This document shows positions 46,270-53,364 of a stretch of DNA of 64,000 bases, one piece after another; the first letter of the stretch is position 1, and each line of letters begins with the position of its first letter. The DNA comes from Acarospora socialis (lineage: Eukaryota > Ascomycota > Lecanoromycetes > Acarosporales > Acarosporaceae), in assembly GCA_025617375.2 (NCBI GenBank), contig JAMYGW020000004.1:558001-622000 (forward strand). The letters run 5' to 3'. The translations under genes and the position numbers were made by a program. A model generated the notes under the pieces. The model was not told the origin of the DNA. It saw only the letters and a program-made list of their open reading frames with translations, and made no database searches.

Positions 46270-46952
46270 GCTTTAGAGACTACCCGATCACCCTCGTTCG
46301 GAGCTGCGACGACGCCTTTTCCTCTCGAACTCGTCTTCGATCATGGGCACTACGTTATGGAGCAGAAGGAGTTTTAGATTAGCGAGTCACTCGTTTCTGT
46401 TGCCAAGTGCTGGCAGCAGACATTCATCCCCTTCTTTTGTCCTCTTTAGGATTGCATATTATTCTCTGTATATATCTGAGTCGTCTGTTAACAACCAAAA
46501 TGGGATGTGCGGTAAAGAGAACTACTCCCCTAGCTTAGCAGCTAGCACCAACCCCTTCGGGACATCAATCACTCGTTGTACTTGTAGGAAATACAAACTC
46601 CCCAAAAGAAGCCAATGGCACCGGCAACAATGAAGGTGATATCCTCACTAAGGTAGCCAGATTCTTGATCTCATGATCAAACTAGACGAACATAGGTCGG
46701 AGCCACCTCCTGAAGCACACCTGTAGTGATTCGAGGTGGGCACACGATTCTCGTGTATCTGGGGTGCCAAATCAAGGAGCTCATACCCTACAGGTTGAGC
46801 CGAGTTTCTGTGGATCTCTGTGTCTTAAGTCAGGGCCTCTGTATGTTTTTGTCCCTGTCCTGTTTACGTATCATGTTGTAACATCAACCTTAGATTATGT
46901 TCAACACCCTTTCTGGGAAATATGGTGTTCCTGTTGTTTCATCGACATCATC
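46270..46952. other. Spacer left of the decayed island
   Basis: About 680 bases with ordinary CpG content. No gene is supported. The C-terminal end of the HET gene may extend into it. Confidence 0.45.
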
Positions 46953-49244
46953 TCACCATGCACCGTCCTCTGTAAGAAACGTGGACTGAAAGACACCAAT
47001 ATGCTCATGCAGATTATCAGTCTGCCCATGTTCACCATCTGGCATTGTAATTGGTCTGAGGATCAGTCCTTGCGCGCGATGCGTATAGTTGTCCTGCTTC
47101 AAACAGACCATAACCAGAAAATGCATATGAATGAGCCCCGGGTGAATATCCACTATCAAATCCAGCTTTGTTGTTATAGTGTAGGCGAGTTGTTTTGCTC
47201 CTGGCAAGTCTTTAGACATCTTGAATGAAGCTGTATTTCCAGGAGTGTGATGACACAAAAATTTACCACTCATGGTGATAACTCCACCTCTAGGATCTCC
47301 ATTCAAAGATGAATTGACTGCAGTTGCCGCCAGTATAGAACACCTCCAAGCACTATCCTCGTATTCATTGTTATACAGACGCCTTACTGGGCTCTCTACA
47401 CACACCCAGGAGAACAAAGGCACTATATATCTCTTCAGACGCCGTCCAGGTCGTTCCACTTCCCAGAGCAACTCACCGAACAAAAGCTCTTTTCACATCC
47501 CAAAGTAAGGTGTGAGATGATCATCATGAGCCGCAATCAGCTCAATGAGACCCTGCAATGCAATGAGCTTATCTCCATGATCTGTGAAACCCTTGGTGCT
47601 GTAGTTTTCAACAATTTGAGATCAGTCACACTCTAGATTTTCAAACCTTGTTTCCATTGTTTGTATCGGCTGAGGCAAGTCGATTTCTGAAGGCATTGTT
47701 GCTGACGTTCCACCGTTTTTGATATCTAGATTGAATTGCCCCTTTGAGAGACCATCTGCCTTGAATGCTCTTTCAGAATTTGTTTGATCAGAGTTGTAGA
47801 GTGTGAAATCCCTGATCTGAAAGTCACCTTCATGATATTCTTGACGTTGTTGAGCTGAGAGTAGAAGATCAAATAATTCCTTTCCGTTTTTTGGCACCTG
47901 ATCCTGAAATATGCAATGTTCATCATTGATCTTCAAAGTATGACATTCCCAATGAATGTCCTGTGCTCCAAAGTAGATGGTTCTGGGTGGAAGAATCTGT
48001 TCTTGAAATACTCAATCTCTATCAAGTAAAGATGCTTTTGCAACTGTTTCATGTTCCTAATGTCAATAGTCACTAGAGTCATTCAAAAGACTATCAGGTC
48101 CATTCCTCAATTCACTTTTCTTTGGATTTGGTTCAAACCTCACACCATAAAGTCTTCAAGTTACAGGTAGTTCACATGAAAGATAGAAATGAGAATTCCA
48201 CAATGTATAACACCCAGATGCACTATTGACACCATGAAGAGTGACAAGAGAAAAGATGCAATTTGAATAGACACTCACCATAGTTTCAGTCTCATGCTTC
48301 CAGTCATCATTGTCATTCTGAATGATACATAGAAAATCAATTCACAGAAAGCAATATTCTAGTCTGTGGCAGATATGAATAGTGTCTTGAAATGTTTGTG
48401 AAAGAGATTGAAACAACATGGCAGCAATCAGTGAAGTGAGTGTAGCTTTCTCTAATTTCATAATGTTTGCATTATTCTAGCAGTGACTAAGAGTCACATA
48501 TTGTATGTCTCTATTCTTTTGATAGTCACAGATATGTAGGTGTGATTCTTGAATATCACTTGACAAATCAATATTCAAGAGTCATGTTGATAGGTCTCCT
48601 GAAAGCTTCACAAGAAATTACAATGTTTATGCTCTCTAATACACTTGCTCAACTGTTTCTGAATTCAGGCAAGAGTTGCTTCTGAGGAAGTTGACACACT
48701 ATTGTGAGTGAAAATCAAGTTGTGGTCAAATTCAAAATCAGGATTTTTGTCCACTAAAAGCAACTACTCATTAGATATTCTCAAGCTCAGATGAACAAGT
48801 TTCATAGTGGAAGAAGAGAGATCTATGGTCATTCACAAAAATCAAGTTCTCTTCTATTTTTCTTATGTGAATCACACTGAATGTTGCAGTCTTCAATATC
48901 ACAATAAGTTGAATATGTTCAACAGGGTACCAGATACCCAAGACTATTGTGATTTTGATCTTTGAGTTGAGTTGCTTTCATGATGAGTAAGGATGCTGTG
49001 AAGTCAACAAATTGCATAGGTGGCAGTCTTGCAAGATGAACACTTCAAGGTTGTGAAGTGTGATTTGGCACATGAAGAGTCTTTCAAAGAAGATATGCAT
49101 CACTTTTGATTGCAGTTCTGATTCTATTTCATGACTATCATTGTGAGACTGATCACTCATAGATGCATAGCTTTCAGAATCAGTGCTATTGTGCTCTTCA
49201 TCTTGCACATCAAATGTGGTTAGCTGTGCTTCAGGAAGCATCAC
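46953..49244 (-). pseudogene. Decayed HET-domain (heterokaryon incompatibility) gene
   Basis: Fungal HET-domain genes act in self/non-self recognition and can trigger cell death. This copy is broken, with many interruptions in its 5' half. Recognisable HET blocks in order on the minus strand: YVTLSHC near 48,490; FLCIIQNDNDDWKHETE near 48,300-48,345; LPPRTIYFGAQDIHWEC near 47,950-48,000; GFTDHGDKLIALQGLIE near 47,560-47,610; FGELLWEVERPGR near 47,440-47,480. A Cys-containing segment (ILQDCHLCNLLTSQ) near 48,990-49,030 may be its N-terminal region. The half right of about 47,887 has lost every CpG, while the left half is near normal in composition. Decay fits mutation spreading from the neighbouring repeats. 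Confidence 0.85.
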
Positions 49245-49927
49245 CTTGAAGAAATGAGTGAAATATTGTTTGAGAAGTCATTGAATACAATCTTTGTTCT
49301 GAGAAGCATAGAAAGCAATTGTTGACTTGTCAAAGTACAAGATTGTAATATCACATGTACTGACACTGAAACCATTTTCCCAATCTTCATATTGCTCTGA
49401 ACTTCTTTTTCAAGTGAGGGAGTCATTCAGAAGTTTTGAGTTGTGACAAAGATTTTGACAAGTCTCACAAAGCATATGTAACTGAACAGTTTCATTAACA
49501 GACTTCATGTCTGCTTCTCACTTTGAGCAGTCTTGAGAGATTGAGACAGAATGACAATTGTCTCAGATAACAATAGTAAAAGAAATTAAGCTGTCTTCTG
49601 AAAGAGCATGCTACATGACAATCATCATCTTGATGTTAGTAGTTGGTGTAATTGAAATGACAGACTGCAGACAGCAAGATAGAAGAAACTGTTTATCTAA
49701 CTAGCTACATTGTGTGTATCACCTGATTGTTGAAGAAGATTGACTGTGTTCAGGCAGCAGTCTTGACTAGACATACTCTACTTGTACAATGATACTTTTC
49801 TGATGCTCTCTCATGCTCACTCAATGCTTTCTTATAAAGCATCTCTGCTCTCTTTCAAGACCAGAAGCAGTATATCATTGTTAGAAGCTGTACACAATCT
49901 GTTGAGCTATGTCATAACAGTTCAAGG
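49245..49927. other. CpG-free stretch between HET relic and MITE
   Basis: About 680 bases of mutated sequence. A 61-codon minus frame (49241-49426) might be HET gene leader or coding sequence. Otherwise nothing recognised. Confidence 0.4.
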
Positions 49928-50189
49928 TTGAGACTCAGAGTAGAAATTCATTGCAATACACAGACTGTTGCCCTTGAAGATGCTATAATCACACAACAAC
50001 AAACAGTGTTCAGAATTGAAAATTTGAAGTGCTGAGAGACAACATGCTAAGTCACTTGATGTATTGATTTCCTGAAAGTAATAAGGTATCTCAGTGTGAC
50101 TGTAGTTGAGTCTTATACAGCAACAGCTCATAAACATACCTTTAAATGTTGCCTAACTATGTAGAACAAATTTCTACTCTGAGCCTCAA
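49928..50189. mobile_element. MITE-like element with 21-bp terminal inverted repeats
   Basis: The left end TTGAGACTCAGAGTAGAAAT(T) at 49928-49948 is inverted at 50169-50189 with 20 of 21 positions matching; the one difference is a transition. Total length is 262 bp with no credible coding capacity. The target-site duplication is ambiguous because the flanking TCAAG overlaps the repeat. It lies 22 bp from the end of the Fot1-like transposon. Superfamily unknown. Confidence 0.6.
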
Positions 50190-50211
50190 GTCTAGATGAT
50201 ATACATAGATA

Positions 50212-52020
50212 ACACATTTCTCTGTTACTTGAGCAATCCTCTCTGTCAGGTCATCTCACTGTCACTTAATTTGGAATGTCAAAACAGCTAAAATTATTGA
50301 AATATTCACACCACTAGACTAATTACATGAAAACTGAATACTTCATGATCATTTTCTTTCAAATTAACTTCACAAATTCAACTTTACCTCTTAATGCATG
50401 ATATCTAGCTGATTTAGTAGTCAATTTCTTCACTCTATTCTCTTCTTTCTGCATCATGATTCTATTCTCATTGACTGTAAAAATTTGAACACTGTCAGCA
50501 GTCTTTCATGATTACTTTTTTCATCACTGCTGCTGCTTCTCAAGAAGTTCTTAATTAGTCTGCTGTAAAACTGCTCTATCTGTCACAGCTATTAAAACTG
50601 TGTTCTTTAGATCTAAGACATGTGAATGCAACAAAGAAGTCATATCAGCAAGAATTTCATTCACAAACTGATTGATTCAAGTAACTATATGAAATATGAC
50701 AGTAATGTTAATCTGAACTTCATTGAAGTTTGTAAAGAACACAAAGAGAGAAGTTGTTGATCAAAAAAGATTTGAAGTAACAACAGAAAAATCATATGAA
50801 ACAAGTTCAGCAGTTCTTCATGCACTAAGAACATTTTTAGTTGTAATAGCTGTTGATTTAATTTTCTGATAATAATGCAGAAAGTTCATCTTACTGATGA
50901 TGACAGCATCATAATGAAAGTGTTCATGCATTAATTTCTTATAGATCTTAATCAATGAGCTGAAGACTTCAACATTCAGTGACTGTAACAAATGAGTTGA
51001 ATGAGAAGAAAGACACAAAGCAATGATGCTGTAATCACAGCAGTACTGAATAAAATCATTAAAAATATAACTTTCATGACTGTTCAGTATTAACAGTTGA
51101 TGAGTTTCTTGAGTTTGAGTTCTAGTGTGTAGATCAAAGATCTTTAGTTATTGAAGTTTTAATTCATTGATAATTCAGCTGTTTTCACTGACTGATAGAA
51201 CAGTTTTATCATTCTTAATAGAATTTAATCAGACATGCTATATACTCTTGTTCTTAAAAATGAAGTAGAGAGAAAAAACATTGTTATTTGAACATACACA
51301 CTCAATAAAAAATATTCAGTTCTAATTATCAGCTTGAACACTGAAGACTTGTTTTTCTGTGTGTTATATTAGAATTTTGAAGTTGTTAGTAATGTTCATA
51401 GCAAATCTCTTTTCATTCATGTTGTATATATCTGACTTCAAGATATCATGCTGAATTCAAGTGAAGTTGTATAGATCAAATTATTTCTGAATGATTTTGA
51501 GATTTTCAGTATTCTTTTGATTCTGATTGAGATTTCAACTATATTGAGTCTTAAAGTCTGAATGTTGAGACAGAAAATTCAGATATCAGTTGTGTTCTAG
51601 AGATTTTTAATCATTTTTAGTCTTCATAAGCTGTCTGATCATGAATTTCAGCTGTGCAATTTGTGAAGATCATTCTCAGATCATTATAGTATTAATTTAC
51701 TGAATCAGAGCATTTTTCTCATGCACTGACAGTCACTGTTGAATGATGTGAAAGATCTTTGCTGATTGTCTTTCTTTTCATTGAGCTTGTAGAATAGATT
51801 GAGATAGACTGTAGATTCAAGCAATTTTGTGAAGAAAGACTGCTGAATTACTATTCAAATCAGCTAAGACTAGGGTATATTGGGTGTCAATGTCAGAAAT
51901 TAACTTATTCAGTTCATCTGAAGTCATTGTGAATGTGTGATGACAGCAAGATGAGTGGCAGTGTTTGCTGTGACAAGGTGGCCTGATTAGGTGAGTGGCT
52001 CGAATAACAGGGAAACTTGT
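50212..52020 (-). mobile_element. Fot1/pogo (Tc1-mariner) DNA transposon, decayed
   Basis: An 1,809-bp element bounded by TA duplications (50210-50211 and 52021-52022). The ends begin ACA..TTTCyCTGTTAyTyGAGC on both sides, degenerate inverted repeats of about 45 bp whose differences are largely transitions. Inside, on the minus strand, are remains of a DDE transposase: a start MTSDELNKLISDIDTQYT (ATG at 51927), a DIYNMNEKRF segment matching the family's IYNFDETGF, and CLSSHSTHLLQSLNVEVF near 50,960-51,015, the classic HSSHLLQPLDV block. Size and ends are those of Fot1-like elements. The coding region is heavily interrupted and the element has no CpG except one at its right end. Confidence 0.88.
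50330..51927 (-). pseudogene. Fot1/pogo transposase remnant
   Basis: Reading frame of the transposon above, on the minus strand. The longest stop-free piece (50818-51018) covers the third-acidic-residue region of the DDE_1 domain. The C-terminal charged region (EENRVKKLTTKSARYHALRG) is visible near 50,370-50,430. Stops are frequent throughout, consistent with G-to-A and C-to-T mutation, so no active enzyme is expected. Confidence 0.82.
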
Positions 52021-52056
52021 TATTTAGTATCAATAGGAGCAGAAATTGGTATTACA

Positions 52057-52169
52057 AATCTCGTGGCGCAGTGGCTAGTGCGTCGTTCTCCCTTATCAAA
52101 TCATCTGGAATTGGTATGACAATGTCCTGGGTGACGCGGATCTCGCGAGTTCCAATCTCGCCGCGGTTA
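52057..52169 (+). tRNA. tRNA-like sequence, intron-bearing or relic
   Basis: The A-box-like TGGCGCAGTGGCTAGTGC starts at 52064. A good T-arm lies at 52144-52160: stem GCGAG/CTCGC around the loop TTCCAAT. The acceptor halves AATCTCG (52057-52063) and CGCGGTT (52162-52168) pair at six of seven positions, followed by A. The span of 113 nt would need an intron of about 40 nt after the anticodon loop (possible CCC anticodon, glycine), but the variable loop does not fit well. Position 57 of the T loop is C rather than the usual purine. A tRNA pseudogene or SINE head is as likely as a working gene. Confidence 0.35.
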
Positions 52170-52425
52170 TTCATTTCTGTGCCCTTGTGGAGGAGAAGTA
52201 TTTGTGGTGACGAGCCGTTGTCTCCTACTACAGACACTTTGAAGGAACTCTAGGAAAGGGGGAATTTACACCTACCCTACTCTTAGTGGATTGCTGCATA
52301 CCTTAGGTCGAGGGGGTATCGTTCATGACTGCTCTTCGCTTGGTCAACGTCATCGACCACATGCTTTGCTGCTCCTAACAACTCTGCGCAAGAAGCCCTC
52401 ACTAGTCTCCCATACTCTTTGTACA

Positions 52426-53364
52426 ATGAATGCGCTCCTGGACCATCCTCCTGGCGGTTTCATCCCCTCAACTCTCCCGTCTCCACCTCCATCATCCATC
52501 ACCTCACCCAGCCAAAACCCATCAACCCTGCCCCACCCTCGCGCCCATCCTCTCAAGTCTGGCAGCGCCAAAGAATCCGGCTTCATCAGCTTCGTCGATC
52601 AGGGCATACTGAACGTCACGAGACGTTATGCGAAGCGCTTCAGCGCGCAACTCGAAGACCGCCCGGGCGAGAAGAGGGCAGACGCAGACGCGGCAGGGAG
52701 GGGATACGAGGACTTTGGGGAGGTGGCTAGGGATCTCGAGGAGCTGGTGGATGTCGTGTGGGTGTCGGGGACACGTACGTTTCTACATCTCTACCTACAT
52801 TTCTACGTCTCCAACGTCTAGAATGTGTGTGCGATCAGTAGACGGCGTACATTGCAGTATGCGCTGACTCGAGCTGATGAGTTTTCGGGGTCAACAGCCG
52901 CATTACAGATCTCGTACCTGCTGAACCTCGCTTCACTACTGGACGAATATCTCCCTTCATTCGAATTCGCGCCGCGACCGACTTTTCGGCTCTTGCGAAA
53001 GATCGATGTCGCGTTTTCGTCGCTGTTGCAGGGGTGGGATGTGGAGACGGGGGACGTATTGCCTGGCTTTGCGAGAGGGGGAAGAAAGGTCAGTCAGACG
53101 GAGAAGGTCAGGATCAGGGGCGTGGTGGAGAGGACGAGGGTGCATGTTGTCGAGGTTGCGGGGAAGGGTGGCGGGAGTATGAAAGGTATGGCGCAGGAGA
53201 GCGCGGCTGAAGATAGCAACTTGGAAGATGTGGGTATGAGCATGACTGAGGAGGAGGAGGATGTGGATATGGATGGTTCTGGCGAGCATTCGAGTTGGGA
53301 GATGGAGGTTGCGAGGGTCTATGAGAGGACTATTGTCGAGCTCGGAGAAAGTCTAGGTGGGTGA
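52426..53364 (+). CDS. Conserved fungal protein, function unknown
   Basis: Exons 52426-52774 and 52898-53364 give 271 residues. The Pro/Ser-rich N-terminus leads to GFISFVDQGILNVTRRYAKRF, then GYEDFGEVARDLEELVDVVWVSGTP across the intron. LQISYLLNLASLLDEYLPSF, a helical stretch, is followed by FRLLRKIDVAFSSLLQGWDV and VRIRGVVERTRVHVVEVAG. The tail is acidic (MTEEEEDVDMDG). It looks all-helical and conserved in Pezizomycotina, but I know no function. The frame is open upstream to 52291, so the start could be earlier. Confidence 0.7.

Follow-up and report, generated by a model that had tools for sequence, protein, structure and literature searches.

Why does a stretch of some 4.1 kb of fungal DNA contain not a single CpG? 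The question is raised by a locus of the ascomycete Acarospora socialis (31.1-Mb assembly GCA_025617375.2, 38 contigs) that lies in a 64,000-nucleotide stretch of contig JAMYGW020000004.1 (C4:558001-622000), hereafter called the window. A first-pass annotation, made from the letters alone, had ascribed the block to a copy of the transposon Fot1 that was struck by a process resembling repeat-induced point mutation (RIP), with CpG as the target or with deamination of methylated CpG as the cause. We conclude that a RIP-like process has probably altered the repeats in this block and the neighbouring DNA, acting on C that precedes G or C (CpS) and largely sparing CpA and CpT.

Results

A block without CpG and poor in CpC

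The loss of CpG is complete. The bordering CGs lie at 47885 and 52001 (gap 4116) with none between them, while 118.1 are expected from base composition (Poisson P ~5e-52) and 1000 mononucleotide shuffles of the block gave 93-147 CpG each. The second-longest CpG-free gap in the window is 152. The reported abundance of TG and CA is also borne out (observed/expected ratio, o/e, 1.53 and 1.62), and TA does not rise (0.56). What the first reading had missed is that CC and GG are scarce as well (o/e 0.35 each), with a CC/GG count of 0 at 50501-51750. Both flanks had been called normal; this holds on the right, where CpG is normal immediately beyond the Fot1 end (68 vs 68.8 expected at 52023-53000), but not on the left, where a graded edge is partially depleted (Table 1).

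The block is not one Fot1 copy, or any other single 4.1-kb element. Fot1 covers 1813 bases only, and the block is composed of three different parts: this Fot1 copy, a repeat resembling a miniature inverted-repeat transposable element (MITE) and ~2 kb of an adjoining, decayed HET-domain gene.

Direction and context of the changes

Which bases changed, and next to which neighbours? As the reference we used L002 (on C5), a Fot1 copy with a 570-aa open transposase frame that carries DDE_1 and two helix-turn-helix (HTH) domains. Context counts against L002, with C scored on both strands, were made for L004, L005, L008 (the copy in the block), L012 and L015, while L006, L007, L009-L011, L013, L014 and L016-L018 were profiled for composition only. 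L004 was aligned as well; its weaker contrast is kept out of the headline figures and is weighed below.

Between L002 and L008, 308 of the 1813 aligned sites differ, comprising 165 C>T, 140 G>A and 3 T>C, with no A>G and no transversion. Hence 305 of the 308 differences are of the C:G>T:A type that RIP leaves in repeats, and the earlier proposal of a RIP-like process stands. In L008, C>T change affected 176/218 CpC and 60/114 CpG, as compared to 38/260 CpT and 30/273 CpA. The preference is sharpest in the lightly hit L005 (112 differences from L002, one of them a transversion), where the counts are CpG 41/114, CpC 60/218, CpA 3/273 and CpT 1/260. The corresponding counts are CpC 166/216, CpG 59/114, CpT 82/260 and CpA 69/272 in L012, and CpC 103/132, CpG 31/60, CpT 34/167 and CpA 26/170 in L015. 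In CC, the first C is the base that changes: ACCA became ATCA six times in L005, remained unchanged ten times and never became ACTA, and in L008 it became ATCA ten times and ATTA five times, with one unchanged. A 5′ T favours the change of CpC in L005 (TCC 29/70, GCC 13/54, ACC 11/49, CCC 7/45).

The same contexts were struck in a family of long interspersed nuclear elements (LINEs). Nine 1.5-kb pieces from seven contigs, 95-99.9% alike, were each compared with the per-column majority, and the C>T changes amount to CpC 104/740, CpG 11/72, CpA 22/2349 and CpT 19/1785. The CpC and CpG rates are alike (Fisher P 0.73) and those of CpS and CpW (C before A or T) differ (P 6e-59), although these P values overstate independence because the copies are related. 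Of the 58 remaining changes, 47 are T>C or A>G. The compared copies of both element classes, Fot1 and LINE, have thus undergone chiefly C:G>T:A change, and it falls on CpG and CpC. The usual CpA preference of RIP, which differs among species, is absent, and the counts from L005 and the LINE pieces rule out classical CpA RIP; with neither mainly CpA nor random contexts in the copy alignments, the first-pass annotation was right to set CpA aside. Its choice of CpG was half right, as CpG is struck but is not the sole target, CpC being struck about as often.

Could the low CpG content, as the first-pass annotation had also considered, already have been present in intact copies? The open-frame copies are themselves CpG-poor (o/e 0.38-0.58 in L002, 0.06 in the intact LINE), and part of the family-wide loss is therefore older. 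Simple inheritance accounts for it only in part, however: L002 retains 57 aligned CpG sites, of which 56 are changed in L008, and the single CpG left in this copy lies at 52001.

Saturation and internal stops

We profiled 487 bins of 500 bp, taken from the window and from 19 loci selected for the Fot1 copies and methyltransferase genes that they surround; the counts apply to these bins and not to the genome as a whole. In 88 bins there is no CpG and CC/GG is at most 2, and 17 more lack CpG but have 3-30 CC/GG, while the reverse case, CC/GG at most 2 with CpG remaining, occurs in 0 of the 487. The 88 saturated bins (44 kb) have a CC+GG o/e of 0.02, a GC content of 27% and a GpC o/e of 0.97, and their TA o/e is 0.68 vs 0.73 in normal bins. 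L035, a stretch of 9991 bp, lacks CpG altogether. At 11 of 17 DDE_1 loci, the 500-bp bin that holds the match is free of CpG, and at 10 of these 11 it has at most one CC/GG. Where saturation is reached, no CpG and hardly any CpC is left, and the gene-space DNA that we examined is normal, including that around the three methyltransferase genes described below (CpG 1841 vs 1949 expected).

TGA predominates among the internal stops, which is the outcome expected if CpG and GpG are changed (CGA>TGA and TGG>TGA). With 150 of 435 RVT_1 candidates scored, the 127 rows with stops contain 418 TGA, 60 TAA and 21 TAG; the 13 DDE_1 rows with stops contain 53 TGA, 16 TAA and 6 TAG.

A LINE with an open frame almost free of CpG

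The intact LINE (Table 1) keeps a long open frame. This frame contains no TCG, ACG, CCG or GCG codon (for Ser, Thr, Pro and Ala), and AGA accounts for 42 of its 49 Arg codons. The LINE copies are still struck at CpC. It looks as though the LINE survives by having lost the target dinucleotide, and it may thus be a transposon that has escaped in this way; its mutation history together with selection for the open frame gives the same picture.

Among the matches listed, 42 RVT_1 rows have a length like that of the LINE (660-768 nt); they come from 14 contigs (C1-C12, C14 and C16) and fall within just one span on each, the widest being 145 kb on C1; nine LINE-like pieces only were aligned as one family. 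These single-span islands are perhaps candidate centromeres.

Three C5 methyltransferase genes

Which enzyme is available for such a process? The search for RID- and Dim-2-type methyltransferases, suggested by the first-pass annotation, yielded both, and the genome contains three C5 methyltransferase genes in all: RID-like, DIM-2-like and DNMT5-like. The RID-like gene on C2 encodes one methyltransferase domain across two frames, with the PCQ motif present and no match to the BAH domain, and its protein has relatives in lichen fungi. We call it RID-like on the strength of this architecture. In the DIM-2-like protein, the methyltransferase domain scores above the cut-off, while BAH (29.5, cut-off 30.8) and RFD (17.4, cut-off 22) are slightly under; the best PDB match is 9bap (E 5e-200), and relatives carry the name Dim-2. 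The closest named relatives are those of Pleopsidium flavum (Acarosporales), at 62% for DIM-2 and 46% for RID, and other relatives reach 85% and 74%, respectively, in keeping with a host that is probably lichen-forming and close to Acarosporales. The DNMT5-like gene (L041) has a C5 methyltransferase and an SNF2 domain in adjacent frames, and 1162 residues match PDB 7r76, an entry titled Rad8 that we take to be Cryptococcus Dnmt5.

Discussion

A probable RIP-like process with inverted 3′-base specificity

RIP with an inverted specificity for the 3′ base would best account for these observations. Like RIP, the process would target duplicated DNA during the sexual cycle, and the RID-like methyltransferase on C2 may be the enzyme, with a changed 3′-base preference. 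One CpS enzyme would produce similar rates at CpC and CpG, no transversions in L008 and confinement to the repeats and their edge. The fuller picture—a mirror image of RIP directed at CpS, an altered RID-class enzyme, and an arms race with a target-purged LINE that resides in per-contig islands, perhaps centromeric—we consider to be evenly balanced between right and wrong.

Several observations weigh against a single CpS-specific RIP. First, the older copy L004 has a weak preference (CpC 39/212, CpG 23/110, CpT 20/251, CpA 26/270). Second, CpA and CpT were also changed in the heavily hit copies, at 11-15% in L008 and 25-32% in L012. Third, strand runs, a sign of processivity, are absent in L005 (z +1.7) and L012 (z -1.7) and weak in L008 (z -3.3; CpG only -2.3). 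Fourth, in the DNA left of the repeats (47887-49927), CpG is zero while 46% of the expected CC/GG remain, so that an additional, CpG-only route of loss may exist. Fifth, there is almost no leakage around L012, whose two 300-bp flanks retain 13 and 8 CpG. A separate matter is novelty: the spacing of heterozygous single-nucleotide polymorphisms given for Rhizoctonia solani in the cited part of PMC4014442, 214 bp for CpC and thus less than the 370 bp for CpG (not normalised), leans against the full novelty of CpC change.

How did the DNA left of the repeats lose its CpG? The simplest account is leakage, in which the process would have spread into this part of the HET gene from the Fot1 and the MITE next to it. 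To the left, the loss continues for ~2 kb past the MITE; to the right there is none. The examined gene space is normal, yet this DNA is CpG-free and no second copy of it was found: DNA searches with 48500-49700 and 46900-48500 returned only the window itself, and the C-terminal HET piece, searched as protein, matched only itself, misses that are not proof. As a tentative alternative, the HET region may once have been present twice; the copy here would have been mutated, and the other would have segregated away or escaped the searches. The one-sidedness of the loss and the tight borders of L012 argue for such a lost duplicate and keep it in play, while the graded left edge and the empty DNA and protein searches argue for leakage instead.

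A somewhat unlikely alternative concerns the enzyme: the CpS mutator may be the DIM-2-like or the DNMT5-like protein and not the RID-like one. All three genes are present, and Neurospora has a second RIP pathway that depends on Dim2 and Dim5, according to the cited passages of PMC12543289; in the Neurospora crosses described there, however, the RIP k-mer shift is abolished by the loss of Rid1 and not by that of Dim2.

Less likely still are two separate processes, in which CpG would be lost through 5-methylcytosine, made by DIM-2 or DNMT5, and its deamination, and CpC through a separate RIP activity. The DIM-2-like and DNMT5-like genes exist, and CpG loss ahead of CpC loss, in the 17 bins without a reverse case as well as left of the repeats, is what two processes could leave. 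In contrast, the LINE pieces have the same CpC and CpG rates, and the per-C rates in L005 (0.36 for CpG vs 0.28 for CpC) differ by a factor of only ~1.3; moreover, CpG precedes CpC partly because each CpG site can be hit on both strands. Deamination of methylated CpG was the first-pass annotation's other suggestion. In an ordinary, slow form and without RIP, it agrees with the full loss of CpG and the raised TG and CA, but it is very improbable. As the sole cause it is rejected, because CpC was lost equally; 305 C>T or G>A differences out of 308, with no transversions, are also far from a slow clock.

Comparison with known systems

How does the proposed RIP directed at CpS compare with the known systems? 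With Neurospora RIP it has in common that repeats undergo C:G>T:A change, that transposons are inactivated and that the genome has RID- and DIM-2-like genes. Unlike the Neurospora crassa order CpA>CpT>CpG>CpC given in the cited part of PMC5496416, CpC and CpG here rank far above CpT and CpA. CpG is targeted, as here, in Trichoderma reesei (CpA~CpG, then CpT>CpC; PMC5496416), in the MATE element of Aspergillus nidulans (CpG and CpA; PMC2621366) and in Tuber melanosporum (CpG and CpA; PMC4352252). In the cited passages on these three, however, CpA is also a main target and CpC is the least or goes unmentioned, whereas in the present case CpC is on a par with CpG, and CpA is spared. For ten genomes, the passages of PMC4352252 give CpA, CpT and CpG signatures, and the word CpC is absent from them.

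The CpG-biased mutation of basidiomycetes (TpCpG in Microbotryum; R. solani AG8) shares with the present case that CpA is not preferred and that TGA stops are expected; there CpG is the reported context, and the present host is an ascomycete that possesses a RID-like gene. Cladonia rangiformis, a lichen fungus with strong RIP, resembles our case in its low-GC repeats, sharp edges and RID and DIM-2 homologues, but its RIPped GC peak is ~16% vs ~27% in the saturated bins here; the cited text (PMC12542154) contains none of the terms CpG, CpA, CpC or 'dinucleotide'. RIP directed at CpC or at CpC and CpG together was not found in the open-access papers searched, and an earlier report may exist.

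According to the cited passages, RIP-like defences in 1,239 fungal genomes share a CpA preference (PMC12543289), and an Ascomycota-wide survey used CpA-based RIP indices with stringent cut-offs for RIP-positive DNA of >1.15, <=0.75 and >0 (PMC7882544). The block gives a TpA/ApT of 0.62, a (CpA+TpG)/(ApC+GpT) of 1.59 and a negative composite of -0.98. Such systems may therefore be overlooked, as the block is saturated and yet index-negative. The block suggests that the preferred 3′ neighbour of the target C can switch from A/T to G/C, and the system offers natural enzymes for finding what sets RIP specificity.

Parts of the block and neighbouring features

Table 1. Features of the block, its surroundings and the intact LINE (window positions unless a locus is named)
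Feature	Position	Strand	Remarks
CpG-free block	47887..52000	none	GC 34%; CC+GG 83 vs 237 expected
Graded left edge	46501..47884	none	CpG 33 vs 68.4 expected (partial depletion)
HET-domain gene remnant	46953..48500	-	HET match 48162-48500 (C4:606162-606500), 2 stops; may reach further upstream
CpG-free DNA left of repeats	47887..49927	none	CpG 0/66.5 expected; CC+GG 61/133 expected
MITE-like repeat	49928..50189	none	262 bp; 21-nt inverted ends, 95% complementary
Fot1/pogo-like DNA transposon (copy L008)	50210..52022	-	1813 bp; DDE_1 match; alignment to L002
tRNA-like sequence with insertion in anticodon region	52057..52169	+	RF00005, 25.5 bits vs gathering score 29
Intact LINE	L043:1293-5282 (C1:2765001-2771000)		1329-aa open frame; copies L044-L051

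The Fot1 copy belongs to the Fot1/pogo group by the DDE_1 and HTH domains in the open frame of L002 and by its own DDE_1 match at C4:608830-609309 (window 50830-51309), which is interrupted by 4 stops. Comparison of its ends reveals imperfect terminal inverted repeats with TA at each end. The MITE-like repeat has two more genomic matches, on C1 and C2 (78% and 81%).

The tRNA-like sequence lies 34 bp past the Fot1 end, where CpG is normal, and neither ARAGORN nor a scan at the gathering threshold called a tRNA there. The CpG loss ends on the side of this sequence, a single case from which we claim no barrier role.

The C-terminal piece of the HET-gene remnant (46953-47483, 176 aa) is still open. 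The genome has 52 HET-domain matches, 45 of them without stops. Other matches carry only TGA stops, at C3:1267-1605 (5), C8:454707-455033 (3) and C3:272560-272928 (1), and these are perhaps further HET genes struck by the same process.

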